64,000 nt of DNA from Pectobacterium carotovorum (GTDB lineage Bacteria > Pseudomonadota > Gammaproteobacteria > Enterobacterales > Enterobacteriaceae). Positions 880-39,049 of this stretch are shown piece after piece. How positions within the stretch are numbered: the stretch's first letter is position 1; each line of letters opens with the position of its first letter. The DNA is taken from the NCBI GenBank assembly GCA_016415585.1, contig CP066552.1, positions 1,302,001 to 1,366,000 on the forward strand. Reading direction: 5' to 3'. The notes below the pieces were generated by a model that searched no databases, was not told the DNA's origin, and was given only the letters and a program-made list of their open reading frames with translations. Both the position numbers and the translations under genes were made by a program.

Positions 880-2927
880 TCAATGATGACCTTGCGCAAG
901 CCCTCCCGCCCCGTCAGGAAGCCCAATCACTACATTTTGCATCATTCCCTGATCCTCATGATCCAGAATATGGCAATGCAATACAAACTCACCGATATAG
1001 CGTTCATAACGTGTACGAATAGAAATTTTGTATGACCCGTTGGAGCGTTAATGGAGCTTAATGGTTATGTTACTTTTTATCCATAATGTATCCTTCCAGA
1101 CGCCTTTCAGACCAGCGTACTGTGAGATACTACCATCCGCTTCCTTCGCGCCCTGCATACTCACGTCATTGCCATTTGGATCGAGAATCTGAATAATTTC
1201 GAAAGGATTTACATGAATATGGAAAGGATGACTAGCGAAATAGGATTGTAATTGCCATTCCTGCGCGGTTCCAAGTACCAATGGGCGCTCGATCTGGGTA
1301 GGGGAATAGGAATGAGAGCCAGCAGGGCTATAGGTTCCATCGCTATTTTTTACTACAGAAAATGAATTACCCACTTCAAACGTCGGGGGCGTCTTGGTTG
1401 TATCAATGTAAAACACCAGTTCCTGCGCTGGGACATGGCTCACCTCTTCGTCAGTAATAGGCGGATGGGGAACAAATTTGGTCAGCTTAAGGCCCTCTTT
1501 CAAACTACTGACAATTTCTTTGGCCAGCTCGGGTTGATAAGCCTTCTGCGCACGCTCGATCAGTTGCTGAGTTGTTGACGCTATGGGGTCGCTTGTAGGG
1601 TTCCCGCCTTTGACTCTGACGAAACCCAGCACCGAGCGTGCTTTGTCTTCACGCGAGGCGTTATCCGCTGCTTTTACCGGTGGATTGACAATACAATAGA
1701 GGCCATCTTCAGGGAAATTGACAAGTAGATCATTGCGATAGCCGGGTTGCAGGGTAGTATTAGTTTGTACCAGTCCCTGGGGCATAGTCAGTCCGTCAGC
1801 TGCGACGACAGCATAAGGGCTCGGTGAGCCAGTGCAGAGATCGCGTACAAAACGATCCTCATCTGCTGCGCTAAGGTCCTTTTCTCGTGAGAGAAAATCA
1901 TTGGTATTGAGTTTACGAAACTCTACTTTAATAGTCTCACGCACCCCAGCATGAACCAGACGCCAGCGTTCAACCTGACCAGCTTTGGTATTGGCAAAAA
2001 CAGGCCTTACTCGGCCGTTGACTGTAGTAAAACGACCCGAATCATCCCATGATCCTGGCTCGAATTGCTTATAAGAGGCTACTTCGCCAGGGTTACATGA
2101 CCAGTCAATAGATCCATCTGGTTTTTCCTTCAGCTCGCCATCCTTGAGGCAGGCATAGGGAATTTGCTCAAAAACCAGCGGATGTTCAGGGAATGGTTTA
2201 CCATCCGTGGTCTTCAGCAGTGTATCGATATCGCCGTTTGACGTTTCGGTTGGCATACGATTCCCACGAATAACAAGCGCACCAGCCATACCACTGCCAA
2301 CCTGAACTGCGGTTGAACCATGCTTATGCGGGTGATACCAAAATGTTCCAGAAGGATGATCGGAGGGAATGTTATATTCATATTCAAACTTCACACCTGG
2401 GTTAATTGACAACAGGACATTATCGCTATTCCCGGTTGGGCTAACCCAAAGCCCGTGGCTATGTAGATTGGTGTAGTTGTAACAATGTGGGACGTTAATG
2501 TTATCATTTTTTTGCTGCAATCAGGTTCGGGAGGTAACTGGTTATCGAGTCTTATTCTGACAGTATCTCCCGGCATGGCTTCAATCGTTGGGGCTATAAA
2601 AGGGTGGTAGGGATCGACACCTGTGCCGCTATAGCTACGTAAGCGTACTTTATCGGGGTGTCCTTGTGCTGGATTGTGAATTAATCCCTCTATATATTTC
2701 ACTTTAAGATCTAAAGTTTGCTCTCGACCTGCATGAGGCTGAGCTGGATTATCAGTTTTCATTAGATAAAGTGTTCCAGACGGCATCATTGACGATTCGG
2801 TCAGTATGGGAGGGTTCATGAATGTATTTACTTGCGACTCATTTTTTGCTTCTTGAGCATCTACATTAGGTAGATAAAAATTGAATAGAAAAACAGTCGC
2901 GCTGAGAAATAATTTTCTATATGCCAT
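880..2927 (-). pseudogene. Multicopper oxidase, broken by a frameshift and an in-frame stop
   Basis: Exported multicopper oxidase with a signal-peptide-like N-terminus (MAYRKLFLSATVFLFNF...DAQ). All copper-ligand motifs can be read if two lesions are ignored: LHSHG and WYHPHKHG in the N-terminal cupredoxin domain, HPFHIH near the C-terminus, then FVLHCHILDHEDQGMM. Lesion 1: a run of seven A (plus-strand T run 2507-2513) shifts the frame; one extra A would join DCSKK to NDNINVPHCYNYTN. Lesion 2: a TAA at 1048-1050 interrupts the frame, which then continues unchanged to a TGA at 880-882 and encodes the second HCH copper site. The product would be about 680 residues. As read, no fragment has all the ligands, so it is probably inactive unless one or both lesions are sequencing errors. 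A short near-duplication (CCATTAAGCT / CCATTAACGCT on the coding strand) surrounds the stop. Confidence 0.88.
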
Positions 2928-3537
2928 ATCTTCCCTATGCCTTAATTTTTTAAGTTTATACGAATTTATTTTTATAAATGAGTTTTTTTACCTCGCTATT
3001 TTTTTTTGCAATTAATTTAATGGTTAAATTAAAGTATAAATTTATAAAATTTCAAAATTGATAAACATCATATTGAATGTTTATGATTTTCAATGAATAT
3101 TTTCTATTTTTTTATGGAGGAGTATTTTTTAAATTTATATTTAGCCTAATTATTTTATAGGAGGGATAATGATTTTTACGAAAATTTATTTTTTGAGTAA
3201 ATGGTAGTAAGCGCGTGTCATGTGGACGAAGGAAAGCTCTGACGACAATGAAGGATGGCTTGTTAACAATCCTGACGCCATACAGATATACCCGTCATAC
3301 TTCAAGCTGCTTATGCGTTGGCAATACTCGGCTCATCTCTGAACCTCGGCCTTAAGGGCTGACGAATCCCCAGAAAAGGAGACAGGCATCGAGTTTTATG
3401 ATCTACTGATTTTCGCCAAAAAATTCAATGAGATATCCCTGTACCTGTCCGTAAAGTATGCCAGACTTTTTTCCGTGATACTTTAGCTTCGACACATCAA
3501 TATCGGCAAAATGCGCTTATTGATTCAACCACTGCGT
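2928..3537. other. AT-rich gap with a dispersed repeat, no gene seen
   Basis: About 250 very AT-rich bases upstream of the oxidase remnant could hold its old promoter. Bases 3292-3309 (CCGTCATACTTCAAGCTG) recur in opposite orientation at 62445-62462 before aroL, so this is part of a dispersed intergenic repeat. No convincing coding frame was found in the rest, up to the IS left end. Confidence 0.5.
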
Positions 3538-4409
3538 AGTTTTGTTGAATAAATCGAACTTTCAGGTGACTGGCGGATCTGATCACGACAGTTCGTTTCA
3601 ACACAGATCCTCATGGCAAAGCAAAAGTTTAAAATCACCAACTGGTCTGCCTACAACAACGCGCTCAGGCAACGTGGTTCACTGACGGTCTGGCTTGATG
3701 AATCAGCGATTGCCGCATGGACCGACAACGCACAACCTGAAGGTCGTGGCCGACCACTTCACTACAGTGAAATCTCGCATCTGGTCATCGACAGTACCGG
3801 TCTGAAGGTCTTCGGCGAAGGCGAATGGAAAGTCAGGCAGTACGGGACAGATAAGCACAGAGTATGGAGAAAACGCCATCTGGCGGCAGACAGTGTCACA
3901 CATGAGACTATCTGTGCCGATTTATCTCTCAGTGGAACCACTGATGCGCAGGCTCTTCCTGTGTTGATAAACCAGACTCACCGCAAAATCAAACAAGCCT
4001 CAGAAGATGGCGCTTACGATGTCTGCTACTGGTATGATGCCCTGATGAAGAAAAAAATCAGGCCACTCATCTCGCCGCGAAAGGGTGCGCAATACTGGCC
4101 CGACAAGTACCCTGAGCGTAACCATGCAGTGGCGAATCAGCACCTGAGCGGAAGTAATGGCGTCTGGAAAAAGAAAGTGGGTTATCACCGTCGCTCAGTG
4201 GCAGAAACGGCTATGTTCCGTATCAAAACCCTGCTGGGTGGTCATCTGAGCCTGCGGGACTATGACGCGCAGGTGGGTGAAGCGATGGCGATGGTTAACG
4301 CGCTGAACCGAATGACGTTATTGGGTATGCCGCACAGCGTCCGGATCGCGTAACAAGGGTTCCAGTTGGAGCCATCCTGTCGGCTGACTCTGATTTATTC
4401 AACAAAGCC
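3538..4409 (+). mobile_element. IS5-family (IS903-like) element, shortened
   Basis: The right end is GATTTATTCAACAAAGCC (to 4409) and the left end is TTTGTTGAATAAATC (from about 3541), which together form the terminal inverted repeat of IS903-like elements. The outermost three bases on the left (AGT at 3538-3540 instead of the expected GGC) do not match. The element is about 872 bp, whereas the family is about 1.05 kb; the deficit agrees with an internal deletion in its transposase gene. No matching target duplication is seen at the two sides, so flanking DNA has probably changed since insertion. Confidence 0.85.
3613..4353 (+). pseudogene. IS5/IS903-type transposase with internal in-frame deletion
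   Basis: The 246-residue reading frame starts MAKQKFKITNW and carries the DDE-type motifs of the family: VIDSTGLKVFGEGEW (first Asp), a DGAYD segment (second Asp) and AETAMFRIKTLLGG (Glu). Relatives are about 305-310 residues. From recall of the family, around 60 residues that normally sit between GRPLHY and ISHLVIDSTG are absent; here the two segments are fused as GRPLHYSEISHLVID. The frame is kept, so a shortened protein could be made, but it lacks a large part of the N-terminal domain and is probably inactive. The missing block is inferred from memory of IS903-like proteins. Confidence 0.8.
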
Positions 4410-4578
4410 TCTTTCTGATACTTCATGTGAAGAAGACCGTGGGTTTAGGGTACGTGGCGTACAGCGCGTCCGTTAAGCCGAAAAATTATAGTATATGGTG
4501 TTATTAGTACGGAAAATTATCAGAACTGCCTTATCAATATAAGGGTGATGATAAAACCAGCATACGACCGCCAAGCGC

Positions 4579-4607
4579 TTGACTTGGCGTACCATTATCA
4601 CTAATTT
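4579..4607 (+). promoter_or_regulatory. Candidate thrW promoter
   Basis: TTGACT (4579-4584), a 17-base spacer and TAATTT (4602-4607) lie about 45 bases before the tRNA. The -35 is good and the -10 moderate. Confidence 0.5.
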
Positions 4608-4652
4608 GTCACCCCGTAGTTCACGTCTGGCTCTCGCCACGACGATCCCAAA

Positions 4653-4728
4653 GCCGATATAGCTCAGTTGGTAGAGCAGCGCATTCGTAATGCGAAGGTC
4701 GTAGGTTCGACTCCTATTATCGGCACCA
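4653..4728 (+). tRNA. thrW: tRNA-Thr (anticodon CGT), island attachment site
   Basis: Complete 76-base cloverleaf. The acceptor stem is GCCGATA / TATCGGC with an encoded ACCA end, the anticodon loop is TTCGTAA giving CGT for ACG codons, and the T-loop is TTCGACT. Position after proA and sequence match enterobacterial thrW, a classic integration target. A tyrosine integrase begins 87 bases downstream, so the 3' half of this gene is probably attL of the island. No second copy of the tRNA 3' end was found downstream in the window. Confidence 0.97.
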
Positions 4729-4815
4729 TTCACTTATATCTTATTGATTTAATTAACGTTAAATTCATTCAAAGTGAAATCGCGTAGCCTCTACTACATA
4801 GAGGTCATACAGCCG

Positions 4816-6756
4816 ATGGCTCAACGTGATAATCTGTATCGCCGTAGCAGCGGTATTTATGTTGTCCGTATTGCAGTTCCCGCCCGATACCGTCTCTACA
4901 CGGGACAGCGTGAGATTCACGCTTCAACAGAAACAAACGACATCAGAAAAGCGAGAGCGATTGCCGCAGGTTTATTGGTTGTCTGGCAGCGATGTCTGGG
5001 TGAGTATCAAAAATTGGATAGAGAAAAGTTGGTAAGCAGTGCGCCTGCTTTGGCTGGAGAAGGAATGATCAGCCTCGCTGAATTTTGCGGTTTAACGAGC
5101 GCTTCCCTGCAACAAGTGGCGCAGCGACTACTTGATACGAATATCCCGCTTTTTTGGCTTGCTGATGGGCGTCCTGCCTACTATGTAGAAGACCTCTCAC
5201 TCGTTGATAAGGATGATCCTGGGGCTTCTGGATTTATCATCGATAGTGCCATTAACATCGGGATCAGAGGTTCTCTGAACGGTTATATTCAGCCCTTGGT
5301 TGCCTCACGTATATTACGTCAGATGATAGCAGGCGAGACGCTGGAAGCAGAAACCGCGTTTAAATCCTCAGAGGCTTCATCCAAAGCTGCATGGTTCGTT
5401 GACTTTCCCGGTGTCGAAATCTCACCTACTTCATTAATGATTCATCGTGTGCAAGCTGAGCGCTTACGATTATTTTGGCTGTCATATAGTCCCGTGCTCT
5501 CTCCTGCAACTCCTGAGAAGCCAAAAGCAATATCCACTGCAATATTGTCCCCATCATTGCCAGAGAATGAGTATGTAAATCGTAAATACTACTCTGTGAA
5601 AATGAGCGAGCTATGTGAAAAATATATTCGCTACAAGCGCGGGGGGAAATTCACGGAAAAGGCAGAGAATCGAGTTCGGGAAGGTTTTAGCCTACTGGTT
5701 GAAGTCATGGGTGATCCAAAGCTTATAAAAGTAGATCGTGACTATCTCCGTGAGTATGAGAGCTTACTAAGGTCGATACCTGCACGGCGTGATTTGGCTA
5801 AAATCCGATACAAAATCAATGACATTCATAAGCTGGTGGTTAAAGCAAAAGAGAATGGCGACTCTCTAATGAGCGATAACACCGTTCGTAAATATATGCG
5901 GGTTATCTTCGAAGCTTTCAGGTGGGCTGATGGAGAAGGTATTTTTATTAAGTCCCCAGCGAATCAATTCTTCGCACCTGTAGAAAATGAAAAGATGGAT
6001 CAGGACTTCAAAGCTGATTTCACTGATGAGGATTTGCGCGCTATTTTTAACTGCCCTTGGTTTAAACGTGGAACTGTGGATAGAAATAGCGAGGGACGCT
6101 TCCATCATTACCGTGCATTTCATTACTGGTTGCCACTCATCGGATTCTTTACCGGAGCAAGGATTAATGAGTTATGCCAACTTTATCTAGATGATATTAA
6201 GCAGGATGCGACCGGGTTTTATTTCTTTGAAATCAACAACGATCGGGCCGATCAGTCACTGAAAACGATTAATTCACGAAGAAAAATACCGTTGCATCCG
6301 ACATTGATAAAACTTGGATTAATCCGCTATTGCGAAGCATTGAAGAAAGCAGGTCATGCGCGTTTATTTCCAGAGCTTCCTTACCACCCTGTAAAAGGAT
6401 ATGGCGATAAAGCTTCGGACTGGTTTAATCGCTCGTTGCTCAAAAAACGGTTAGGCTTTGAAAAAGACAGCAAAAAATCTTTCCATTCATTCCGTCACAC
6501 GTTTTCTACCAGGCTCAAACAAGCAGGAATCGACAGCGAGACGCGTGCGCAGTTTGTTGGACATATCCGCGGTTCTGGAGAGACGGAGAACCGATATAGC
6601 AAAGATCATCCACCAGCAGCCCTCTATGCTGTGCTTGAGAGCGTTACGTTAGGGCTACCAGAAGTTGCTCCATTTGTTTGCGAAGATGGTGTAGATGCGG
6701 TAGCTGATGCGCTACAAATTAAAAGAAATAATAGAGAGCGTAATCTTAAACAATAA
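4816..6756 (+). CDS. Tyrosine-type site-specific integrase of the thrW island
   Basis: Catalyses integration and excision of the island at thrW. A C-terminal phage-integrase domain carries the expected residues: Arg449 in TGARINEL, His557 and Arg560 in FHSFRHTFS, His583 in VGHIRG and the nucleophile Tyr594 in ENRYSK. The N-terminal half contains a DNA-binding region. I chose ATG 4816 (MAQRDNLYRR) over the GTG at 4774 because GAGGTC lies at the right distance before it; this gives 646 residues. Integrases this long with a C-terminal extension past the tyrosine are typical of genomic islands rather than lambda-like phages. It looks intact. An IS256-family copy lies just downstream. Confidence 0.93.
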   Translation: MAQRDNLYRRSSGIYVVRIAVPARYRLYTGQREIHASTETNDIRKARAIAAGLLVVWQRCLGEYQKLDREKLVSSAPALAGEGMISLAEFCGLTSASLQQVAQRLLDTNIPLFWLADGRPAYYVEDLSLVDKDDPGASGFIIDSAINIGIRGSLNGYIQPLVASRILRQMIAGETLEAETAFKSSEASSKAAWFVDFPGVEISPTSLMIHRVQAERLRLFWLSYSPVLSPATPEKPKAISTAILSPSLPENEYVNRKYYSVKMSELCEKYIRYKRGGKFTEKAENRVREGFSLLVEVMGDPKLIKVDRDYLREYESLLRSIPARRDLAKIRYKINDIHKLVVKAKENGDSLMSDNTVRKYMRVIFEAFRWADGEGIFIKSPANQFFAPVENEKMDQDFKADFTDEDLRAIFNCPWFKRGTVDRNSEGRFHHYRAFHYWLPLIGFFTGARINELCQLYLDDIKQDATGFYFFEINNDRADQSLKTINSRRKIPLHPTLIKLGLIRYCEALKKAGHARLFPELPYHPVKGYGDKASDWFNRSLLKKRLGFEKDSKKSFHSFRHTFSTRLKQAGIDSETRAQFVGHIRGSGETENRYSKDHPPAALYAVLESVTLGLPEVAPFVCEDGVDAVADALQIKRNNRERNLKQ

Positions 6757-6810
6757 ACATAAGTTTGAGTGTTTTTGTTAGCTGTCTGATTTAATTTGTT
6801 TGTTATAATA

Positions 6811-8125
6811 GAGACTGTAATTAAAATTGTGTAATTGCCTGTTTTTGATATGTTCACTCCAACAACGGAGACAGGCAAACGATGGACGAAAAGAAACTTA
6901 AAGCACTGGCTGCTGAATTGGCTAAAGGCCTTAAAACCGAAGCCGACCTCAATGCGTTTTCCCGCATGCTGACGAAGTTAACCGTCGAAACCGCGCTCAA
7001 TGCAGAACTGACTGAGCATCTCGGGCACGAAAAAAATGCCCCTAAATCAGGCTCCAATACCCGAAATGGTTACTCGTCTAAAACCGTGTTATGTGACGAC
7101 GGTGAGATTGAACTAAGCACGCCACGTGACCGTGAAAACACCTTCGATCCGCAACTGATAAAGAAAAATCAGACGCGCATCACGCAGATGGACAGCCAGA
7201 TTTTATCCCTGTACGCCAAAGGTATGACGACCCGTGAAATCGTTTCTACATTCAAAGAGATGTACGATGCCGATGTGTCGCCCACGCTGATATCCAAAGT
7301 CACCGATGCGGTTAAAGAACAGGTGACAGAATGGCAAAATCGTCCGTTAGACTCACTGTATCCCATTGTTTACCTTGATTGTATTGTGGTGAAAGTCCGT
7401 CATAGCGGCAGTGTCATTAACAAAGCGGTATTCCTCGCTCTGGGTATTAACACCGAAGGCCAGAAAGAGCTGCTGGGTATGTGGCTGGCCGAAAACGAAG
7501 GCGCGAAGTTCTGGCTAACAGTGCTGACGGAGCTTAAAAACCGAGGACTTCAGGACATCCTGATTGCCTGCGTGGACGGCTTGAAAGGCTTCCCAGAGGC
7601 CATCAACAGCGTCTATCCGCAGACACATATCCAACTGTGCATCATCCACATGGTGCGAAACAGCCTGAAATACGTCTCGTGGAAGGATTACAAGGGCATC
7701 ACCAGCGGGCTGAAAGCGGTGTATCAGGCCCCAACCGAGGAAGCGGCGTTGATGGCGCTGGACACATTCGCGGGCATCTGGGATGAGAAATACCCCCAAA
7801 TCAGCAAAAGCTGGCGTGCGCACTGGGAAAATCTCAACACGTTCTTTGGCTACCCGCCGGATATCCGCAAGGCTATCTACACCACCAATGCCATCGAGTC
7901 GCTGAACAGTGTGATTAGGCAGGCGATAAAGAAACGTAAGGCGTTCCCGACAGATGATTCGGTACGTAAAGTGATTTATCTGGCGATACAGTCGGCCTCG
8001 AAAAAATGGAGTATGCCGATCCAGAACTGGCGGCTGGCAATGAGCCGTTTTATTATCGAGTTCGGTGACCGCCTGAGCGATCACCTTTAATACGGTGGCA
8101 ATTACACAGAATTATGGACAGGCTC
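6811..8125 (+). mobile_element. IS256-family element, copy 1
   Basis: 1315 bp with terminal inverted repeats beginning GAGACTGTAATT (left) and GAGCCTGTCCAT (right, read inward). It carries one transposase gene and appears identical in protein to the inverted copy at 10047-11361. The 8-base flanks are TTATAATA on the left and GTTTCGAG on the right: they do not match each other, but each is the reverse complement of the corresponding flank of copy 2. That pattern shows inversion between the copies. Confidence 0.95.
6882..8090 (+). CDS. IS256-family (mutator-type) transposase, copy 1
   Basis: 402 residues, a normal length for the family. DDE-type catalytic residues sit in the expected context: first Asp in VYLDCIVVKVRHSG, second in ACVDGLKGFPEAI, and Glu in TTNAIESLNSVIRQAIKKRKAFP, the hallmark segment of Transposase_mut proteins. 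It reads through without damage and ends a few bases before the right inverted repeat. The protein is identical to that of copy 2, which points to recent transposition. The two copies provide the homology for the local inversion described at this locus. Confidence 0.96.
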   Translation: MDEKKLKALAAELAKGLKTEADLNAFSRMLTKLTVETALNAELTEHLGHEKNAPKSGSNTRNGYSSKTVLCDDGEIELSTPRDRENTFDPQLIKKNQTRITQMDSQILSLYAKGMTTREIVSTFKEMYDADVSPTLISKVTDAVKEQVTEWQNRPLDSLYPIVYLDCIVVKVRHSGSVINKAVFLALGINTEGQKELLGMWLAENEGAKFWLTVLTELKNRGLQDILIACVDGLKGFPEAINSVYPQTHIQLCIIHMVRNSLKYVSWKDYKGITSGLKAVYQAPTEEAALMALDTFAGIWDEKYPQISKSWRAHWENLNTFFGYPPDIRKAIYTTNAIESLNSVIRQAIKKRKAFPTDDSVRKVIYLAIQSASKKWSMPIQNWRLAMSRFIIEFGDRLSDHL

Positions 8126-8453: not shown

Positions 8454-9673
8454 CAGGGTGGGATCCCACTTTACTTATTGAAATAGAGAACTTATTTCGA
8501 TTTCATTGATCTGAGTTTTATCTCCCCCCAACACTCAGTGAAAGACAATGACCATCTTTAATTATATCAATGAAATACCCGACCCTCGCTGCGAGACGAA
8601 TAAAAAGCATGAATTGATGGACGTCATTTTCCTCACCTTTGCTGCCGTGCTCAGCGGCGCATCGGGTTGGAAAGCCATACAGCAATTCGGTGAGTGCCAA
8701 CTCCCGTGGCTGAGACAGCATTCTCCTTTTGCTAATGGTATTCCAAAACGTCATTGTATCGCCAATATTATCAAGGCATTAGATAGCCAGTCCCTGATGT
8801 CGGCACTGTTAAGCTGGATTAATGAACGTCGCAGTGGTAATGGCAGAAAACAGATAGCAATTGACGGTAAAACACTTCGCGGAACGGGCAACGGCTTTTT
8901 AGCGCAAGCCCTGCATGTCGTCAGCGCTTACGACATTGGCAATGGTATTGCGTTGTATCAACAACTTACTGAAAGAAAAGGTAAAGAAGGACCAGTGGCC
9001 CGCCAGCTTATTGAATGTCTGTCGCTGGAAAATGCCACCGTCACGCTGGATGCTCTTCATTGTCAGGTGGAGACATTGCAGCTTATCTGTCAGCGTAAAG
9101 GCGAGTTTATCGTCGGCATTAAAGGGAACCAAAAAAAGCTGTATGAATTTGTTAAACAGCGTTTTTCTTCATGTTATGACGATGAAGGGCTGGCGACGCA
9201 CAGTGAAAATAATCAGGCGCATGGGCGGACGGAATATCGTCAGGTGATGCAGATAGATGCGGACCTTCCCGAGGAGTTAAAACAACGCTGGCCGACAATT
9301 CGTACGTTAATAGAAGTGGTGAGTGAACGTGGTGAGCGGGGAAAGGTGGTACACAGAGAGTCGCGTTGGTATGTCAGTTCGTTGGCGGTAGACGCACGGG
9401 TAGCGTCACAAATGATACGCGAGCATTGGTGTATAGAAAATCAACTGCATTGGGTATTGGATGTGGTTTTCAGAGAGGATGAGATGAACCTGAAAGACCC
9501 GGAAGGAGCGGCGCATATGGCGCTGTTCAATCGAGTCGCGTTGAGTGTTCTGAAACAGCATGAAGGTAAAAAAGATAGCATAGCGGGCAAACGACAATGT
9601 GCCGGATGGTCAGGAGATTTTCGTAGCGAGGTTATCTTTGGTTAATTCATCGACAAAGTGGAATCCCGCCCTG
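8454..9673 (+). mobile_element. ISAs1-family element inside the ATPase gene
   Basis: 1220 bp. The ends are CAGGGTGGGATCCCACTTT (left) and its near-complement AAAGTGGAATCCCGCCCTG (right). Perfect 10-base direct repeats ACTCGTGAGC flank it at 8444-8453 and 9674-9683, within the 8-10 bp range known for the family. Removing the element plus one repeat restores the ATPase reading frame exactly (THR-ARG-GLU-GLN-ALA-PHE). Confidence 0.95.
8548..9645 (+). CDS. ISAs1-family transposase
   Basis: 365 residues, about full length for the family. It begins with the typical N-terminal region (IPDPRCETNKKHELMDVIFLTFAAVLSG), then has AIDGKTLRG with the first catalytic Asp, VTLDALHCQ with the second, and RWYVSSL / REHWCIENQLHWVLDVVFREDE with the glutamate. 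The frame is intact, so the element may still be active. It inserted into the RloC-like gene independently of the IS256 insertion, because its 10-base target repeat is undisturbed and direct. Confidence 0.95.
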   Translation: MTIFNYINEIPDPRCETNKKHELMDVIFLTFAAVLSGASGWKAIQQFGECQLPWLRQHSPFANGIPKRHCIANIIKALDSQSLMSALLSWINERRSGNGRKQIAIDGKTLRGTGNGFLAQALHVVSAYDIGNGIALYQQLTERKGKEGPVARQLIECLSLENATVTLDALHCQVETLQLICQRKGEFIVGIKGNQKKLYEFVKQRFSSCYDDEGLATHSENNQAHGRTEYRQVMQIDADLPEELKQRWPTIRTLIEVVSERGERGKVVHRESRWYVSSLAVDARVASQMIREHWCIENQLHWVLDVVFREDEMNLKDPEGAAHMALFNRVALSVLKQHEGKKDSIAGKRQCAGWSGDFRSEVIFG

Positions 9674-10003
9674 ACTCGTGAGCAGGCATTCTTTACAGCA
9701 AATCTATCTCGTAAATTGTTAGAATCATTTTTAAACTTCAAATACCCAAAACATAGATCAGATTTATCACAACTAATGGATGTTGCTGCAAAAAATTGTG
9801 TTGTCTTTGATAGCAATAAAAAAGAAAAGGTTTATCGCTTCATTAACAAATATTCCCATAGTGCTGTTATCGAAATGAATGAAGATATTGCTGAAAATTT
9901 AATAGGTGAAGGCACAAACGTAATCGGAGATATCTTTTTATGGATAGAAGAAATTGACAAGGTTCATTATGATGAAATGGTAAGTGTTTGCCAGAAAAAC
10001 TGA
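9674..10003 (+). pseudogene. AAA_13/RloC-like ATPase, C-terminal fragment (inverted)
   Basis: C-terminal piece of the disrupted ATPase. In the rebuilt frame it reads TREQAFFTANLSRKLLESFLNFKYP, then YRFINKYSHSAVIE, ending at TGA 10001-10003. R-K-L-L-E followed later by a Ser-His is reminiscent of the Arg/Glu/His triad of PrrC and RloC anticodon nucleases, but I compared this only from memory. With the two other pieces, counting each target repeat once, the gene is 2292 bases or 763 codons plus stop, a whole number of codons. Confidence 0.88.
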
Positions 10004-10046: not shown

Positions 10047-11361
10047 GAGCCTGTCCATAATTCTGTGTAATTGCCACCGTATTAAAGGTGATCGCTCAGG
10101 CGGTCACCGAACTCGATAATAAAACGGCTCATTGCCAGCCGCCAGTTCTGGATCGGCATACTCCATTTTTTCGAGGCCGACTGTATCGCCAGATAAATCA
10201 CTTTACGTACCGAATCATCTGTCGGGAACGCCTTACGTTTCTTTATCGCCTGCCTAATCACACTGTTCAGCGACTCGATGGCATTGGTGGTGTAGATAGC
10301 CTTGCGGATATCCGGCGGGTAGCCAAAGAACGTGTTGAGATTTTCCCAGTGCGCACGCCAGCTTTTGCTGATTTGGGGGTATTTCTCATCCCAGATGCCC
10401 GCGAATGTGTCCAGCGCCATCAACGCCGCTTCCTCGGTTGGGGCCTGATACACCGCTTTCAGCCCGCTGGTGATGCCCTTGTAATCCTTCCACGAGACGT
10501 ATTTCAGGCTGTTTCGCACCATGTGGATGATGCACAGTTGGATATGTGTCTGCGGATAGACGCTGTTGATGGCCTCTGGGAAGCCTTTCAAGCCGTCCAC
10601 GCAGGCAATCAGGATGTCCTGAAGTCCTCGGTTTTTAAGCTCCGTCAGCACTGTTAGCCAGAACTTCGCGCCTTCGTTTTCGGCCAGCCACATACCCAGC
10701 AGCTCTTTCTGGCCTTCGGTGTTAATACCCAGAGCGAGGAATACCGCTTTGTTAATGACACTGCCGCTATGACGGACTTTCACCACAATACAATCAAGGT
10801 AAACAATGGGATACAGTGAGTCTAACGGACGATTTTGCCATTCTGTCACCTGTTCTTTAACCGCATCGGTGACTTTGGATATCAGCGTGGGCGACACATC
10901 GGCATCGTACATCTCTTTGAATGTAGAAACGATTTCACGGGTCGTCATACCTTTGGCGTACAGGGATAAAATCTGGCTGTCCATCTGCGTGATGCGCGTC
11001 TGATTTTTCTTTATCAGTTGCGGATCGAAGGTGTTTTCACGGTCACGTGGCGTGCTTAGTTCAATCTCACCGTCGTCACATAACACGGTTTTAGACGAGT
11101 AACCATTTCGGGTATTGGAGCCTGATTTAGGGGCATTTTTTTCGTGCCCGAGATGCTCAGTCAGTTCTGCATTGAGCGCGGTTTCGACGGTTAACTTCGT
11201 CAGCATGCGGGAAAACGCATTGAGGTCGGCTTCGGTTTTAAGGCCTTTAGCCAATTCAGCAGCCAGTGCTTTAAGTTTCTTTTCGTCCATCGTTTGCCTG
11301 TCTCCGTTGTTGGAGTGAACATATCAAAAACAGGCAATTACACAATTTTAATTACAGTCTC
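10047..11361 (-). mobile_element. IS256-family element, copy 2 (inverted)
   Basis: Same 1315-bp element as copy 1 in opposite orientation. It is flanked by TATTATAA (10039-10046) and CTCGAAAC (11362-11369), the reverse complements of the left and right flanks of copy 1. This copy originally inserted into the ATPase gene at DDPVSSFD, creating the duplication CTCGAAAC (GTTTCGAG in the coding direction). Confidence 0.95.
10082..11290 (-). CDS. IS256-family transposase, copy 2
   Basis: 402 residues, identical to the protein of copy 1 throughout, with the same D-D-E motifs (VYLDCIVVK, ACVDGLKG, NAIESLNSV). It is intact and has the same spacing to its inverted repeats. It separates the 5' portion of the RloC-like gene from its inverted remainder. 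Confidence 0.96.
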   Translation of the reverse strand: MDEKKLKALAAELAKGLKTEADLNAFSRMLTKLTVETALNAELTEHLGHEKNAPKSGSNTRNGYSSKTVLCDDGEIELSTPRDRENTFDPQLIKKNQTRITQMDSQILSLYAKGMTTREIVSTFKEMYDADVSPTLISKVTDAVKEQVTEWQNRPLDSLYPIVYLDCIVVKVRHSGSVINKAVFLALGINTEGQKELLGMWLAENEGAKFWLTVLTELKNRGLQDILIACVDGLKGFPEAINSVYPQTHIQLCIIHMVRNSLKYVSWKDYKGITSGLKAVYQAPTEEAALMALDTFAGIWDEKYPQISKSWRAHWENLNTFFGYPPDIRKAIYTTNAIESLNSVIRQAIKKRKAFPTDDSVRKVIYLAIQSASKKWSMPIQNWRLAMSRFIIEFGDRLSDHL

Positions 11362-13013
11362 CTCGAAACGGGATCATCGAAAACTATGATGCTGTCGGAG
11401 ATTTTGTTATCATTCTCTGTTAGTTTTGTTATAAAGTAAATCAAGGCTATGGCAGTTTTTTCACCCTCGCTAAGATTAGGTGCATGCCCAATTTGGTTAT
11501 CTCTGAGTATTTCGTATCCATTTTTTTCTTTATTAAATTGGAGAGATAATTCTGAACGACCAAGAAAACCGTGTAGATGCTTATTGAAAATATCTGCTGC
11601 TATGGTTTCATTTGATAACGAATCTTCAATGGATTTTATTTCTGCTTTTATTTCTTTTAGGTCATTATCATTTGTTTGCAAGTTTTTTGTTTCTGCATCG
11701 CGATTTGATATTTTTCTGAAATAATCGAAGCTATTTACCTCCGATGCTGCATAGTGTGACTCAAGTTTTGATTTTACCTTGTGAGTTTCTTCTTTGAAGT
11801 CTTTGCATTTTTTATTATGCATTTCTATTATTTTATTAATTTCGGTTGCGATTTGATTGAAGTTAATAAATAAGGAGTTAGGTATCTCAACGGCAAAGAG
11901 ATCAATGTTGAAAGGGTTGGTTATTTTTTCATCTAATGTTTTCTCCCATTCATTGATGTAACTGTTTATTTTTTCAGCCTCATCTTTAAGGAGTGATGAT
12001 TTTTCTTTTAGAAGATCTTTATGTTCGTCATAAATATCAATATCACTGTTGCTTGCTAACACAATGAAATGGCTTGTTAACCATGTTTTAGCTTTGTCTA
12101 GAGTTTCTGAAAACTTTCTGTATTCATCATTAAAATGTGCGTTTAATTCATCGATTCGTTCTTGTGAAATCTTGTTCCCGCAAAAATGACAGCTATCGCT
12201 ACCTAGATTTAAATTCAATCCACTAAAAACCCAAGATTGTATATCTTGATTGTTTTTTAAGCTCTCAATAACTTTGTTTGTTACTGATTGTTTAAATAGT
12301 TCATTTAACCTATCTTGTGCTTTTTTAAGTAGAGAAGAGTCTACGCTCGGAGTTTTGGTTGTAATTGCCGGTTTTTGTGTGGGATTTGCTGCTTTAGTTA
12401 ACCTTGCTACTTCATTTATATCTAGGATTGAATCTGCTTTTTTTATTAGATCAACATTTGACGTGATGAAGTTTTCAAGTTTTGTTCTATTATAGCTTAA
12501 AAATCTTGAGTCACTGGTATCAATAACTTGTAAACTTGTTTTAGTTCTCTTCGCTGCATCCGTTAGAAACTTTTGAAGTTCATCGGTAAGTTTATCATTC
12601 GCTGTTTTTCTTCTAACATACTCTTTTGTTTTTTTATCTAAAGATGTTCTCAATTCCTCTAATTTTTTCTTCTCTTCAATTTTTTCTTGAGCTATCAACA
12701 AAATACTTTTTACTGAGTTATTCCAGTCAATGTTTTTGTTTATAAAACTCTGATTGAATACTTTCAGATTTAAATTATTTGCGAAAATGTTATCTTTTGT
12801 TATCGTTCCTTGATCGAAGGTTTTTATAGAAAAGGTTGAATTAGGGTATCTAGTATTCTGGCGGTTTTCTATCTGCTCAAAAAGCGATGATAATGTTGAT
12901 TTTCCGCTTCCATTCCAGCCGTATATTAAATTAAGCCTTCCAAAATCTTTTGCATCAGTCTTGATGTAATTTCTGAAAATTCCGTAGTCTCTAAGTAAGT
13001 CAATGCTTTGCAC
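11362..13013 (-). pseudogene. AAA_13/RloC-like ATPase, N-terminal fragment
   Basis: 5' part of a large SMC/Rad50-like ATPase gene, starting at GTG 13013. It encodes Walker A (GWNGSGKST, near residue 34), long charged coiled-coil stretches, a CHFCG pair of cysteines in the middle like the zinc hook of RloC, then the ABC signature LSEGEKTAIALIYF and Walker B SIIVFDDPV. It is cut there by IS256 copy 2; read-through into the IS adds only a few codons. The family (AAA_13) includes the anticodon nucleases PrrC and RloC, which act in phage exclusion. The length of the rebuilt protein (763 residues) fits RloC better than PrrC. Function is inferred and the gene is dead in this arrangement. Confidence 0.87.
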
Positions 13014-16558: not shown

Positions 16559-17224
16559 ATGGCAAAAGGCAAGTTCATCCCTTACTACCGCGTTTCCACT
16601 GCGAAGCAGGGTAAGAGCGGTTTAGGGTTGGCAGCTCAAAGGGAAGCTGTCTCTGCTTACATCAGAAGCACTACTGGGGAAGTTGTCGACGAGTTTGAAG
16701 AGATTGAGACAGGTAAAGGTTCAAATGCTCTAGAAAGACGTCCGCAACTGCGGGCAGCGCTGGCCGCGTGTAAGAAACAAGGTGCTACTTTGCTGATCGC
16801 TAAGCTTGACCGCCTGGCCCGCAACGTGCACTTTGTTACCGGACTAATTGAAACTGGGATTAATTTTGTGGCCGCCGATATGCCACAAGCTGACAAGGTG
16901 ATGATCCAGATGCACGCGGTTATGTCTGAGCATGAACGCGACCAGATTAGCGCCCGGACAAAAGCAGCTCTCGCAGCCGCCAAAGCACGTGGTAAAGTTC
17001 TGGGGGTGGCGGGTAGTGCTAACCTCAAAAGTAACATTGAAGCCCGCCAACAAGCGGCAGAGAGCTTCGCAGAGAATATGCGGCCGTTAATCGAAAGCAT
17101 GAAAGTGCGCGGACTATCGCAGCGCAAAATGGTTGAAACGCTAAATGCTTCACGGACACCAGCACCGAAAGGTGGTGAGTGGGGATTGTCGCAGCTCCAA
17201 AGGGTAATTTCACGGCTCGGCTGA
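16559..17224 (+). CDS. Serine recombinase (resolvase/invertase family)
   Basis: 221 residues. The N-terminal catalytic domain has the nucleophile Ser13 in YYRVSTAKQGKSGLGL, then LIAKLDRLARN with the conserved arginine and SEHERDQISARTKAAL. The C-terminal third (ESMKVRGLSQRKMVETLNAS) is a Hin-type helix-turn-helix. The size is that of small resolvases, not large integrases. It is transcribed away from the rep-like operon and could resolve or integrate that cassette. A 12-base direct repeat (ATACATTGACCA) occurs upstream (16511-16522) and downstream (17304-17315) of it and might mark recombination sites. Confidence 0.9.
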   Translation: MAKGKFIPYYRVSTAKQGKSGLGLAAQREAVSAYIRSTTGEVVDEFEEIETGKGSNALERRPQLRAALAACKKQGATLLIAKLDRLARNVHFVTGLIETGINFVAADMPQADKVMIQMHAVMSEHERDQISARTKAALAAAKARGKVLGVAGSANLKSNIEARQQAAESFAENMRPLIESMKVRGLSQRKMVETLNASRTPAPKGGEWGLSQLQRVISRLG

Positions 17225-17340
17225 TATATTAATTTATTGTTAAGTAATGATTTTTTTTCGAAAAAACAGTAGGTATTTGTTGATTTAGAAACCAGTTGTC
17301 TAGATACATTGACCAATAGAATCAACATGGTTACGATTGT

Positions 17341-17461
17341 GTTGGGCCTCAGGACCCGCATTTCTGAGATGTATACGTCTCGGCTTGTAGTGCCTTTACC
17401 TTTGACGCTAACGCGTCGCGCCGCCACGGGTTACTCGCGGTTGTTGGGGTCCTGAGTTGCC
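17341..17461 (+). ncRNA. Candidate retron msr-msd RNA
   Basis: This region lies directly upstream of the reverse transcriptase, where retrons encode their structured RNA. CTCAGGACCC (17348-17357) pairs perfectly with GGGTCCTGAG (17447-17456), giving the long-range stem expected of the a1/a2 repeats. Inside are GAGATG-TATA-CGTCTC (about 17366-17381), GACGC-TAAC-GCGTC (17404-17417) and CCGC...GCGG (17421-17440). A promoter candidate (TTGTTG 17277-17282, TAGATA 17301-17306) precedes it. The branching guanosine and msDNA borders cannot be fixed from sequence alone. Confidence 0.6.
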
Positions 17462-17488
17462 CTCTCATACCAGAAGGAGCATGAGCCA

Positions 17489-19198
17489 GTGATGGATACA
17501 TTTTTCCCTTTTAATACCTCGCCAAAATATAAGATAGAAAACAATAAAGAATTAGCTGCACTAATCGGTATTACTACTGCTAAGTTAACTTATTACGCCT
17601 ATTATTTAAGTGATGATGATAAGTATCACTCATTCAAAATTCGCAAGCGAATTAACGGAGAAAGATTAATTGAAGCTCCAAATAGAGGGCTTAAAGATAT
17701 CCAAAAAACAATTTCTCATTTTCTGGAGAGAAACTATACACCTCGTTCTTGCGTATTTGCGTATGTTAAAGAAAGAGGCATAGTTGAACATGCCTCAATT
17801 CACGTTGGGCAACGATGGCTACTACGCCTGGATTTAAAGGATTTCTTCCATTCAATAAGTTCGGCGCGAGTTTCAGGAGTGTTAAGACGCGCTCCATTTT
17901 GCTTTGCTAAATCCCCGGCAAATACTGTAGCACGTCTTTGCACAAAAGATGGGCGCTTACCACAAGGTTCACCAGCTAGTCCAGTGATTAGTAACATCAT
18001 TTGCAAAGGATTAGATTATAAACTTAAGCAACTAGCTTCTTCAAACAAGTGTTACTACACTCGCTATGCCGATGATATATTTATCTCTAATAATGGAAGT
18101 GTATTCCCTTCGGCAATAGCAATAAGAGGCGACGATGGTAATGTAGAACTAAGTGAAGCAATAAAAAATATCATAATAAATTCTGGTTTTGAAGTGAATG
18201 CTGGTAAGACGACTCTTCGTAAAAAATCCGAGAGGCAACTTGTTACAGGGGTTATAGTTAACAAAAAAACCAATATACCGAAGGAGTATATAAAGTCTAT
18301 CCGTGCAGGACTTTATGCGTGGGAGAAGTTTGGCTTGGACGCTGCTGAGGAATATTGGAAGAAAGAAATAGAAAGATCTAATAAATTTGATGATCAACCG
18401 CCACAAATGAGATTGGTAATACGCGGTAAAATAATCCATGTTGGTCATGTAAAAGGATATACTGATGCAACTTTCCTAACGCTTGTTAAGCGATTACAAA
18501 CACTTGATAGCGAATTTAAAATTGATGAGCAGAAATTTCGGCGAGAGATAACCGACGAAATTCATATTTATACCGAAGGTGTGACTGATACAAAACATTT
18601 CCAAGCGGCGCTGAATGCATTTCAAAATCGTGGTGAATTCCTTGACTTGAAAATAATATTCAAAAACTCAAGCAAGCCTGGAAGCGCAAATCTTAAAACG
18701 CTGTGTGAAAATCTGCGAGAAACATCACAAAAACATCTCACTTTATGCATCTTTGATAGAGATGAAAGAAATATAGTAAATGAAATGAGTGGTTCTCCGG
18801 GTAATTACAGAGATCACGGTAATAACGTATTTAGTCTAATTATCCCTATTCCTGAATTTAGAAAAGGGAATGACTCAATATGTATTGAGCATCTGTATCA
18901 AGACTCGTTACTTTTTACTTGTGATAGCGAGGGAAGACGTTTGTATTTTAAGGATGAGTTCGATAACCTTAATTGTCATAAGACTGATCCTAATCTCTTC
19001 TGCCGGATTAACAAGAGTTCTCTTGTGTATGATGATAATGTGATTAATATCTCAGAGAGGAAAAATGTAGCATTACCTAAAAACAAATTTGCAGATTATG
19101 TTTGCAGCGGTCAACCACCTTTTAATAATGTCGATTATAGTGGTTTTCATGAGGTTTTCATACAAATACTTGAAATAGCCTCTACGTATAATAAGTAG
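17489..19198 (+). CDS. Retron reverse transcriptase fused to a TOPRIM domain
   Basis: 569 residues. The N-terminal ~320 residues are a retron-type reverse transcriptase: RLDLKDFFHSI, LPQGSPASPVISN, catalytic YADD at residues 193-196, and LVTGVIVN, the retron-type segment after the palm. The C-terminal ~220 residues form a TOPRIM domain with IYTEGVTDTKHF (Glu363) and LCIFDRDE (Asp423, Asp425). This single-protein layout is known from retron Ec67 (Eco2), where the RT makes msDNA and the TOPRIM part is the toxic effector in anti-phage defence. The start is GTG 17489 (nine bases after AAGGAG) or ATG 17492; a three-codon frame overlaps the start. A bidirectional hairpin follows the gene. The frame is intact. 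Confidence 0.9.
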   Translation: MMDTFFPFNTSPKYKIENNKELAALIGITTAKLTYYAYYLSDDDKYHSFKIRKRINGERLIEAPNRGLKDIQKTISHFLERNYTPRSCVFAYVKERGIVEHASIHVGQRWLLRLDLKDFFHSISSARVSGVLRRAPFCFAKSPANTVARLCTKDGRLPQGSPASPVISNIICKGLDYKLKQLASSNKCYYTRYADDIFISNNGSVFPSAIAIRGDDGNVELSEAIKNIIINSGFEVNAGKTTLRKKSERQLVTGVIVNKKTNIPKEYIKSIRAGLYAWEKFGLDAAEEYWKKEIERSNKFDDQPPQMRLVIRGKIIHVGHVKGYTDATFLTLVKRLQTLDSEFKIDEQKFRREITDEIHIYTEGVTDTKHFQAALNAFQNRGEFLDLKIIFKNSSKPGSANLKTLCENLRETSQKHLTLCIFDRDERNIVNEMSGSPGNYRDHGNNVFSLIIPIPEFRKGNDSICIEHLYQDSLLFTCDSEGRRLYFKDEFDNLNCHKTDPNLFCRINKSSLVYDDNVINISERKNVALPKNKFADYVCSGQPPFNNVDYSGFHEVFIQILEIASTYNK

Positions 19199-20023: not shown

Positions 20024-20072
20024 TCTCAATTGGAGCGTGGCCTTGTAGAGGTCAAACTTGCACATTCAGGGC

Positions 20073-20534
20073 ATGAAGAAATCTTTAAGAATCCTGTTTG
20101 GACAACGAGTAAAAGAGTTGCGTATCGCTACCGGAATGAGCCAGGAAGCTTTTGCTGATTTATGCGGGTTTGCGAGAAGCTATCTGAGTAGAATTGAACG
20201 TGGTGGCTCTAATGCGTCTCTTGATGCGATTGAGGTGCTGGCTGAGGCTTTAAGTGTTGAGCCTTGGCAGTTGTTGACGTTCGACTCATCCGAAGATAAC
20301 GATCCGGAACTGTTGGTTCCATATGCTGCCGATGGCTCGTGCTTTCATCCCGGACTGGCAAGCACTCGCGATGGTTCTTTTGGCGTTGGTGATAAAGCGG
20401 CTCAAAAGCGTTTTGACTCATTTTCCGAAGCACTGGAGTATCTCCGTAGCATGGAGACGGCAAAATGGCGTAGGCCCAATGCCAGTGGCAACTGGGGTAT
20501 AGTTTCAGCAGTGCGGTGGGATAAACTGAAATAA
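20073..20534 (+). CDS. XRE-family transcriptional regulator
   Basis: 153 residues from ATG 20073 (MKKSLRILFGQRVKELR); the TTG 15 bases upstream is less likely. A Cro/C1-type helix-turn-helix occupies about residues 8-62: RVKELRIATGMSQEAFADLCGFARSYLSRIERG. The rest contains a segment ending WGIVSAVRWDKL with no domain that I know. It is 31 bases upstream of the DUF4062 gene in the same direction and likely in one transcript with it, suggesting that it controls that gene. An inverted repeat in front (19940-20023) may be its operator. Confidence 0.85.
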   Translation: MKKSLRILFGQRVKELRIATGMSQEAFADLCGFARSYLSRIERGGSNASLDAIEVLAEALSVEPWQLLTFDSSEDNDPELLVPYAADGSCFHPGLASTRDGSFGVGDKAAQKRFDSFSEALEYLRSMETAKWRRPNASGNWGIVSAVRWDKLK

Positions 20535-20565
20535 TTGTGTTTTTTTTAAAAGGAATATTTTTATT

Positions 20566-21747
20566 ATGGCTGGATTAAGGGTCTTTGTTTCCTCTACTTG
20601 CTATGATTTATCGCTTCTACGTTCGCAATTAAGAATTTTTATACAAAATCTTGGTTATGAACCTATGATGAGTGATTATAGTGATCTTCTCTATGACCCA
20701 AGACAGCATACTCATACTAGTTGTATTGATGAGGTTTCTTCCGCCGATGTTGTTGTTCTGATTATTGGGTCCCGTTTTGGTGGGAAAGTAGTTCCAGAAG
20801 CTTTAACAAAAGTAGATTTTGATTCTCTTCAAGAGCCAGGGAAAACAATAGAGTTTTTAAAAAAGAAAGAGAATATATCGATAACTCAGTTGGAAATTTT
20901 AAAAGCAATTGAGTCTGGGATTCCTATATTCACTTTTGTTGACAATGCAGTATGGCATGATCACTCTTTGTATGAGAGGAATAAAGATAAGGGTATCATT
21001 AAAGATATAATATTCCCATCCATTGAAAAAAATGAAACCGCAGTTTTTGTTTTTGAATTTATTAATTTCCTAAGGCAGAGAGCAAAAGGAAATAGCTTAT
21101 TCCCATTTTCGAAAACTCAAGATATTGAAGAAACATTACGCAAACAATGGTCTTTCTTATTTCAACGGTTGATTCATGAGCAAAGAAGGAAAGCCATTGA
21201 AATTAAGAAGATTGATAGTCTTACAGAACAGTTCGAAGATTTGAAAACCGCAATTTTAACTTCAATTGGCTCTAGTAACGAGAGAGAAGTTGCTAGAGGT
21301 GTAGTCAAATATAGACGATTAATTGATTTTATGAAGGCATTGAGAATCGGAGATGATCAAATTTTTATCCGTTGTAAAGACTCATGGGATGTGCTTCTTA
21401 AAAATCATGCCGGTATAGAGAGAGTTGTTGATATAAGTAATTTATCACCAGAGTTAATTCAAAGCATTAAGGAAAGCTCATCTTATCATATGCGGGGGCG
21501 GACGTTCTTAATTAAAGCTGATGAAACTTACTTTGAGTTACGTTTTCCGATTGAATATATTAATAATCTTTCATTGGACTGGGAGGCATTTATTAAGTTG
21601 TCTGAAGATGTTAGAGCTATTATATTTGATGCGTTGGGTGATATGAGAACACCCTTAGGCATCATTAGATATATAAAAGAACCTTTTGGTAAGAAAACAT
21701 CCGAATGGCAAGAAAACGGTGAATTGCTATCCGATAACGAGAGTTGA
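20566..21747 (+). CDS. DUF4062-domain protein, candidate defence effector
   Basis: 393 residues. The N-terminal ~150 residues match DUF4062: LRVFVSSTCYDLSLLRSQLRIFI, then ADVVVLIIGSRFGG and SITQLEILKAIESGIPIFTFV, a TIR/flavodoxin-like alpha-beta arrangement. The C-terminal half is helical and basic with no recognised catalytic motif. Proteins with this domain often sit in variable islands and are fused to STAND or sensor domains in other genomes; here it is followed only by an unassigned helical domain. AAGGA precedes the ATG, and it follows the XRE gene closely. A role in phage defence is inferred from location and domain, not shown. Confidence 0.75.
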   Translation: MAGLRVFVSSTCYDLSLLRSQLRIFIQNLGYEPMMSDYSDLLYDPRQHTHTSCIDEVSSADVVVLIIGSRFGGKVVPEALTKVDFDSLQEPGKTIEFLKKKENISITQLEILKAIESGIPIFTFVDNAVWHDHSLYERNKDKGIIKDIIFPSIEKNETAVFVFEFINFLRQRAKGNSLFPFSKTQDIEETLRKQWSFLFQRLIHEQRRKAIEIKKIDSLTEQFEDLKTAILTSIGSSNEREVARGVVKYRRLIDFMKALRIGDDQIFIRCKDSWDVLLKNHAGIERVVDISNLSPELIQSIKESSSYHMRGRTFLIKADETYFELRFPIEYINNLSLDWEAFIKLSEDVRAIIFDALGDMRTPLGIIRYIKEPFGKKTSEWQENGELLSDNES

Positions 21748-38806: not shown

Positions 38807-38904
38807 TTCGATTAATAAGTTGTTTTGTCATGACAACGTCCAGAGCGTTGACAAATCTACTTGCAGAACGAGAACGGTGGTAATGGGATAGAAGAGTAAA
38901 GCGT

Positions 38905-38924
38905 CCGCGCCAGGGATGGCGCGG
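38905..38924. repeat. Perfect GC-rich hairpin downstream of pehA
   Basis: CCGCGCCA-GGGA-TGGCGCGG, eight pairs and a tetraloop, about 100 bases past the pehA stop in the 243-base gap to the secretion genes. It has no T tract and looks like an intergenic repeat unit rather than a classical terminator. Confidence 0.5.
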
Positions 38925-39049
38925 CTCGAGCTTACAGGGAGGTACTCGCAGCGTCTTTACGATCTACCCATTATCACCGCTCGACTCATTTTTTCAGCAA
39001 TCACAGCACCGTTATTTATAAAATGACAGCGTGCATTGAGTGTACTGAC

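Follow-up and report, generated by a model that had tools for sequence, protein, structure and literature searches.

A putative single-gene retron with a fused RT-TOPRIM protein and a compact, conserved RNA in Pectobacterium carotovorum

In a 64,000-nucleotide stretch of the Pectobacterium carotovorum genome (GenBank assembly GCA_016415585.1, contig CP066552.1, positions 1,302,001 to 1,366,000 of the forward strand; hereafter the window, whose own numbering we use), we identified what is, at a probability of roughly 70%, a complete and working single-gene retron, in which a short multicopy single-stranded DNA (msDNA) primed at G17358 would restrain a TOPRIM domain until phage attack. The gene codes for a reverse transcriptase (RT) fused to this TOPRIM domain and is preceded by a putative msr-msd non-coding RNA (ncRNA). 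The gene, its domains and motifs, the RNA, and the conservation and pairing of the latter were all computed directly. An earlier note on this DNA had described an apparently intact retron with a fusion resembling that of retron Eco2 (Ec67) at 17277..19198. This description holds, as the motifs are intact and the full-length protein model matches Eco2 best; the start of the interval is earlier than the likely beginning of the RNA near 17344. The features of the element are listed below.

17309 to 17337, forward strand: promoter-like site (TTGACC, 17-nucleotide (nt) spacer, TACGAT), weak when taken singly
17344 to 17462, forward strand: putative msr-msd ncRNA of 119 nt, comprising a1 to a2 and the outer helix
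17344 to 17347 and 17459 to 17462, forward strand: the two sides of the outer helix
17348 to 17357, forward strand: a1 arm, CTCAGGACCC, with 10 of 10 pairs standard in all 8 sequences
17358, forward strand: the G that immediately follows a1, candidate branching guanosine, unchanged in all 8 sequences
17364 to 17383, forward strand: msr hairpin 1, 8 base pairs (bp) and a 4-nt loop, with 8 of 8 pairs standard in all 8 sequences
17384 to 17403, forward strand: conserved single-stranded stretch, likely the msr/msd border, 17 of its 20 positions being identical in all 8 sequences
17404 to 17417, forward strand: msd hairpin 2, 5 bp, with a G-C to U-A double change in locus L129
17421 to 17440, forward strand: msd hairpin 3, 4 bp and a variable loop, with 2 of 4 pairs changed on both sides
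17447 to 17456, forward strand: a2 arm, GGGTCCTGAG, which pairs with a1
17489 to 19198, forward strand: RT-TOPRIM fusion open reading frame (ORF), with RT at about residues 16-345 and TOPRIM at about 355-569

The protein has 569 residues from the GTG codon, from which residue numbers are counted here, or 568 if the ATG at 17492 is used. The latter is the likelier start, and the annotation of an Escherichia coli copy (L125) also gives 568 residues. The RT is of the retron type, with the YxDD and VTG motifs present as YADD (residues 193-196) and VTG (252-254), and Pfam RVT_1 matches residues 51-255 (E 2.5e-21). The earlier note had correctly placed these motifs and the TOPRIM residues E363, D423 and D425 in the fusion. 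In a 60-sequence alignment, Y193, D195, D196, E363, G364, D367, D423, D425, E467 and K531 are each found in 60 of 60 sequences, while Ala is present at position 194 in 54, Val at 252 in 52 and Thr at 253 in 56. A sequence search of the PDB gave 15 matches, the best being the retron Ec67 protein (5.8e-46, residues 19-281). Of 1655 homologues (7996 candidates scored), the best 120 were listed: the top one, 97% identical, carries the name Hafnia alvei, and Pseudomonas accounts for most of the named relatives that come next. The genome itself harbours one full-length copy of the RT-TOPRIM protein. It also carries two further retron-like RT genes, L002 (C1:3009148-3009792) and L003 (C1:3777800-3778525), respectively 35% and approximately 28-29% identical to the window RT over the RT core.

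The effector is encoded with the RT, as a fused TOPRIM domain with the E and DxD active site found in Ec67/Eco2-type proteins. In a profile-profile comparison with five Ec67-type proteins, 511 columns were aligned (probability 100, E 8.8e-81), placing EG.TD on EG.TD, DRD on DND and the IE motif on IE. Direct sequence alignment matches E363 and D367 to E374 and D378 of Eco2 (catalytic residues as given in PMC12405507), over a short stretch that is weak alone (9.2 bits). An AlphaFold2 model of the full-length protein from 60 rows has a mean predicted local distance difference test score (pLDDT) of 90.1 and a predicted template modelling score of 0.61, and its best fold matches are Eco2 entries, aligned over residues 9-569. 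Most rows of the VIA structure-match list cover residues 10-345 only, and the TOPRIM part is tested by the Eco2 rows alone. A model of the TOPRIM domain folded by itself from four sequences (pLDDT 39.5) was not used. By the full-length model, the motifs and the profile alignment, the C-terminus is TOPRIM. A TIR effector, suggested by the PADLOC label described below, was rejected on the TOPRIM motifs, the profile alignment and the NCBIfam result.

The a1 and a2 arms form the longest perfect inverted repeat of the 264-nt intergenic stretch (10 bp, spanning 109 nt) and enclose three hairpins; both the long-range pair and the hairpins had been seen in the earlier note. The repeat alone is only moderately unlikely, with 4 of 200 dinucleotide shuffles reaching 10 bp. 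The fold of 17335-17470 is more stable than that of shuffled sequences (-56.7 vs -41.9 kcal/mol, z -3.84, 0/200). The gene has an adjacent ncRNA with a1/a2 repeats and a G immediately after a1, the candidate branching guanosine by analogy with rG15 of Eco2, as described in PMC12405507. RNAalifold pairs G17358 with 17388 as a G-U pair that never varies. A promoter-like site with a 17-nt spacer ends 10-13 nt before a1 in all eight loci, with a tie with an 18-nt-spaced site in L155. Singly these sites are weak, 0 to 111 of 500 shuffles scoring as well across the eight loci, and a regional scan found 10 sites vs 7.7 expected.

Relatives with 56-99.6% protein identity keep this RNA. It was found upstream of the RT in Phytobacter (L004), E. 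coli (L125 and L126), Pseudomonas (L005 and L006) and an IMG/VR contig (L042), as well as in L128, L129 and L155; L122, L123, L124, L154 and L156 repeat loci already counted and were not counted again. Identity of the RNA to the window copy is 89.1% in L005 and L006, 89.9% in L042, 88.2% in L155 and 88.7% in L128, vs 67.2, 67.7, 67.9, 64.8 and 62.6% for the gene DNA of L005, L006, L042, L155 and L128, respectively. In L129, the RNA is 70.3% and the gene DNA 62.4% identical. In the five loci named before it, which are of Pseudomonas type, the 100 nt upstream of the RNA show 49-61% identity.

The earlier note held that a lack of covariation among homologues would count against a retron; paired changes are present. 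Reading the helices by hand in eight sequences, we found a C-G pair of a1/a2 replaced by U-A in L128 and L129, and one pair of hairpin 1 changed on both sides. Hairpin 2 keeps 5 of 5 pairs in seven sequences and 4 of 5 in L155, and the outer helix has 4 of 4 pairs in three sequences and 3 of 4 in five. The four outer pairs of L129 have all changed on both sides relative to the window and still pair. In the covariance-model alignment of the eight sequences (A8), from which an antisense L155 match (23.1 bits) was left out, 96.4% of 248 cells pair (shuffled 92.7, 0/500), 5 of 31 pairs show changes on both sides (shuffled 1.0, 0/500), and the score is 0.167 (shuffled 0.107, 0/500). When the structure is slid along the alignment, 28-50% of cells pair. 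The A8 statistics lean toward structure, because the alignment was fitted to it by a model built from the same sequences, and A8 scores the outer pairs of L129 as unpaired because the L129 bulge differs. The RNAalifold covariation term is small (-0.73). Taken with conservation and the paired changes in relatives, the pairing is far beyond chance expectation.

The RNA appears specific to this family. A model of it (R1) has one match in the P. carotovorum genome (152.9 bits) and nothing credible in 77 other RT loci, including 29 of Ec67 type, in a search that left out L007-L037, L115-L121 and L130-L153. The only match at E up to 1 in those loci, in L063 (15.9 bits, E 0.81), is more than 2 kb from the RT. 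The RNA had been said not to resemble that of Ec67, which agrees with the lack of any R1 match upstream of the 29 Ec67-type loci, a comparison made in one direction only (R1 on Ec67-type loci). Several other RT loci have their own upstream long-range inverted repeats, among them L041 (13 bp) and L085 (18 bp); long-range pairing is therefore general and this RNA is not. PADLOC includes msr-msd RNA models, according to its description (PMC9252829). Rfam gave no retron family match in the whole window at the gathering threshold, and a permissive Rfam scan of 17200-17520 gave one chance match only (E 6.4).

The distribution of the element is patchy, with the RNA in 23 of 5426 E. coli genomes and the RT locus in the same number. 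In our genome samples, it was found in 1 of 59 relatives and 1 of 295 members of the order, in both cases the genome itself, in 1 of 56 in another sample, and in 3/398 and 2/398 on the Pseudomonas side. A class-wide sample gave 4 of 369 at 1e-80, of which only the genome itself belongs to this clade by RT identity. Neither the window copy of the RNA nor that of L129 had a BLASTN match in plasmids. Twenty-four stretches of viral contigs (L130-L153) carrying a 15-base pattern were treated as chance because none matched the RT protein in tblastn at E 1e-20, and one further search returned only the L042 contig.

The element is very probably an intact retron from a branch apart from retron Ec67, with a different RNA. 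In a maximum-likelihood tree of 87 RT domains, 28 of the 31 rows labelled as the window family form one clade (support 99/96), the other three (L127, P0099 and P0102) falling outside it, and the 29 Ec67-type RT-TOPRIM rows form a separate clade (100/99); the tree leaves the deeper order unresolved. Tree labels were assigned by eye from the C-terminal sequence for 'TIR' and 'protease' and by motif for 'Ec67-type'. The window RT thus does not group with Ec67-type RTs and, because its clade is separate, the likeness to Ec67 put forward in the earlier note concerns architecture and does not extend to close kinship. The best PADLOC models are RT-TIR_XII (PDLC02961, 603.2 bits, and PDLC02962, 547.9 bits, both near full length), ahead of 445.8 bits for the best type I-C model, RT-Toprim_I-C; the two labels each match 60 of 60 aligned members. 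The C-terminus alone scores 116.7 and 110.6 bits with the two RT-TIR_XII models. By best model the RT is that of PADLOC type XII, the TIR effector of which the protein lacks. The NCBIfam TIR-retron model gives 306.2 bits vs a cut-off of 600, over residues 20-358 only, and the NCBIfam Ec67 model 296.5 bits vs a cut-off of 450. L127, on a Herpetosiphon plasmid (3001-4680), is a full-length relative (36.5%) with the same 61-residue spacing from EG to DxD as in the window, and by eye it has a possible upstream a1/a2 pair.

Branching, msDNA formation, restraint, trigger, nuclease substrate and protection are what we infer from these data. A short RNA would be transcribed from just upstream of 17344, and pairing of a1 with a2 would present G17358. 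The RT might then bind msr hairpin 1 and use this guanosine as the primer for copying the msd, starting at about 17446 and ending within 17384-17404. The msDNA would be short, about 43-63 nt, or 54 nt if copying stops where it does in Eco2, 9 nt after hairpin 1. The account of Eco2 in PMC12405507 describes its TOPRIM domain as an RNase and its msDNA complex as self-inhibited, and suggests phage DenB as the trigger. By analogy, we propose that the RT-TOPRIM protein bound to its own msDNA is inactive until phage attack. A phage function that damages or sequesters the msDNA may free the TOPRIM nuclease, which could cut RNA, as in Eco2, or other nucleic acid and thereby abort infection.

Several observations weigh against such a working retron. 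Among structural arguments against a textbook msDNA, the weak folding of the predicted single-stranded DNA comes first: the msd is predicted to form two small hairpins, vs a single long one in Eco2, and they are not unusually stable (-9.0 vs -8.07 kcal/mol, z -0.47, 63/200 shuffles as good). Pfam detects no domain, and no TOPRIM, in the C-terminus. Over both domains, the root-mean-square deviation of the model to Eco2 is high (12.0), which may reflect an uncertain or different placement of the two domains. The equivalent of S513 of Eco2, two positions before E467, is Cys in 56 of 60 sequences, and K562 has no clear equivalent, a weak alignment setting K531 opposite K546. In place of the NAxxH motif the window has HASIH, the Asn position (RT residue 101) being His; this position is N in 34, H in 21 and K in 5 of 60 relatives, and the motif, named in one paper on Eco1 and Eco2 (PMC12405507), was not taken as defining retrons alone. 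In A8, the number of further pair types is ordinary (12, with 60 of 500 shuffles as high), the control slid by -2 has 3 double-changed pairs, and many pairs never vary and are therefore silent on structure.

The very short msd and its weakly structured DNA form would also suit an RT-nuclease defence system in which the RNA serves as a scaffold, or as a template with another mode of use, e.g. one copied only during infection or, as in DRT systems, repeatedly, with no stable branched msDNA. The conservation of the msd sequence itself, and not of pairing alone, fits this too, and RT-ncRNA systems that make no msDNA exist (DRT2). We regard this explanation as unlikely: both sequence and fold searches of the PDB place the RT nearest to retron RTs, and a1/a2 followed by an invariant G is the retron layout. 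It is far less probable that the RNA acts in cis as a regulatory leader of the RT-TOPRIM gene rather than as a template: it lies 35 nt before the ATG and in the same direction as the gene, but the distance varies from 13 to 36 nt across loci, the RNA is more conserved than the gene, and neither a terminator nor an Rfam riboregulator was detected there. Nor do we give much credit to a decayed or silent element whose motifs survive only because it arrived recently. The presence of insertion sequences and of a split AAA_13 gene in the island speaks for decay; against it, neither the RT frame nor the catalytic residues are disrupted, and copies in other genera match the RNA. A functional retron making a short msDNA is the most likely reading.

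The element lies in a likely genomic island, of which two further features are relevant.

4653 to 6756, forward strand: tRNA-Thr (4653-4728) then a phage-type integrase gene (4774-6756), likely the island end
16559 to 17224, forward strand: resolvase-type recombinase gene (Resolvase, E 2.9e-28), a constant neighbour in enterobacterial islands

No second copy of the tRNA-Thr 3' 16-mer was found in the window or the genome, nor were direct repeats, and the other island end was therefore not located. In the three E. coli regions examined, the recombinase adjoins the RT, and the recombinase, the RT, a hypothetical gene and a helix-turn-helix (HTH) gene follow in the same order; a site-specific integrase is found further off, adjoining tRNA-Leu in one region, and the genes beyond differ. 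In L005, the retron is followed by Thoeris ThsA and ThsB genes (ThsA 669 bits). In L042, it stands directly behind Mu-like phage head genes (Portal_Mu, Phage_Mu_F; 2817-7725), as phage cargo, and L006 has genes for a phage integrase and a DUF927 protein upstream and a weak SIR2 match downstream. As it travels with different partners, a self-contained unit fits.

The neighbouring defence genes suspected in the earlier note are weaker candidates than implied. Opposite-strand pieces of an AAA_13/PDC-S06 candidate defence gene (9599-10003 and 11352-13013) are split by insertion sequences, the ORFs between them being presumably transposase genes, and inverted ORFs at 6882-8090 and 10082-11290 have identical 402-residue translations, which we take to be a mutator-type transposase. 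The HTH gene and the DUF4062 gene that follow the retron (20058-21747) have a DUF4062 or AAA ATPase gene at their place in E. coli islands, and the DUF4062 gene has no PADLOC match. Elsewhere in the window, Rfam Ysr224 matches 38898-39004 on the minus strand (77.2 bits), and overlapping minus-strand ORFs at 1048-2927 look like one gene split in two, presumably of multicopper-oxidase type.

With this system the RT-TOPRIM fusions gain a lineage whose RNA is compact, measuring 109 nt from a1 to a2. Enterobacterales and Pseudomonas share this conserved RNA, which occurs in islands of E. coli, in other islands and in a Mu-like phage. The system is a clean one for asking what minimal RNA a retron needs and whether sensing depends on the sequence or the shape of the msd. 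It is possible, although less likely than not, that it represents a distinct RT-TOPRIM retron lineage with its own minimal RNA, in which the msd is conserved in sequence as well as in shape. In that case, a sequence-specific role as sensor or decoy, directed at one phage or host protein, may fall to the very short msDNA, in contrast to better-known retrons, whose long hairpins sense by shape. A short natural msd could also interest makers of retron editing tools. For annotation, the case is problematic: the best PADLOC model indicates TIR, the product name in E. coli records goes no further than reverse transcriptase, and the RNA is without an annotated feature in the 20 E. coli records listed. 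We found no paper on this retron lineage in the open literature searched, which did not cover the main classification paper, so that such a paper may well exist.

Among known systems, Eco1 (Ec86) differs in that its effector is a separate protein, with none fused, according to PMC12405507. The C-terminal part of the PADLOC RT-TIR_XII model also matches the window C-terminus, which is TOPRIM and not TIR. In Ec67 (Eco2; PADLOC type I-C), too, an RT is fused to a C-terminal TOPRIM domain with alignable EG.TD and DxD motifs; EG and DxD are 61 residues apart in the window vs 73-100 in Ec67-type loci where both motifs are clear. The RNA follows the Eco2 order reported in PMC12405507: a1, G, a short single strand, one hairpin, a single strand, msd and a2. 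In Eco2, the G is followed by 4 nt, a 23-nt hairpin, 9 nt and an 11-nt hybrid; in the window, it is followed by 5 nt, a 20-nt hairpin and the 20-nt conserved stretch.
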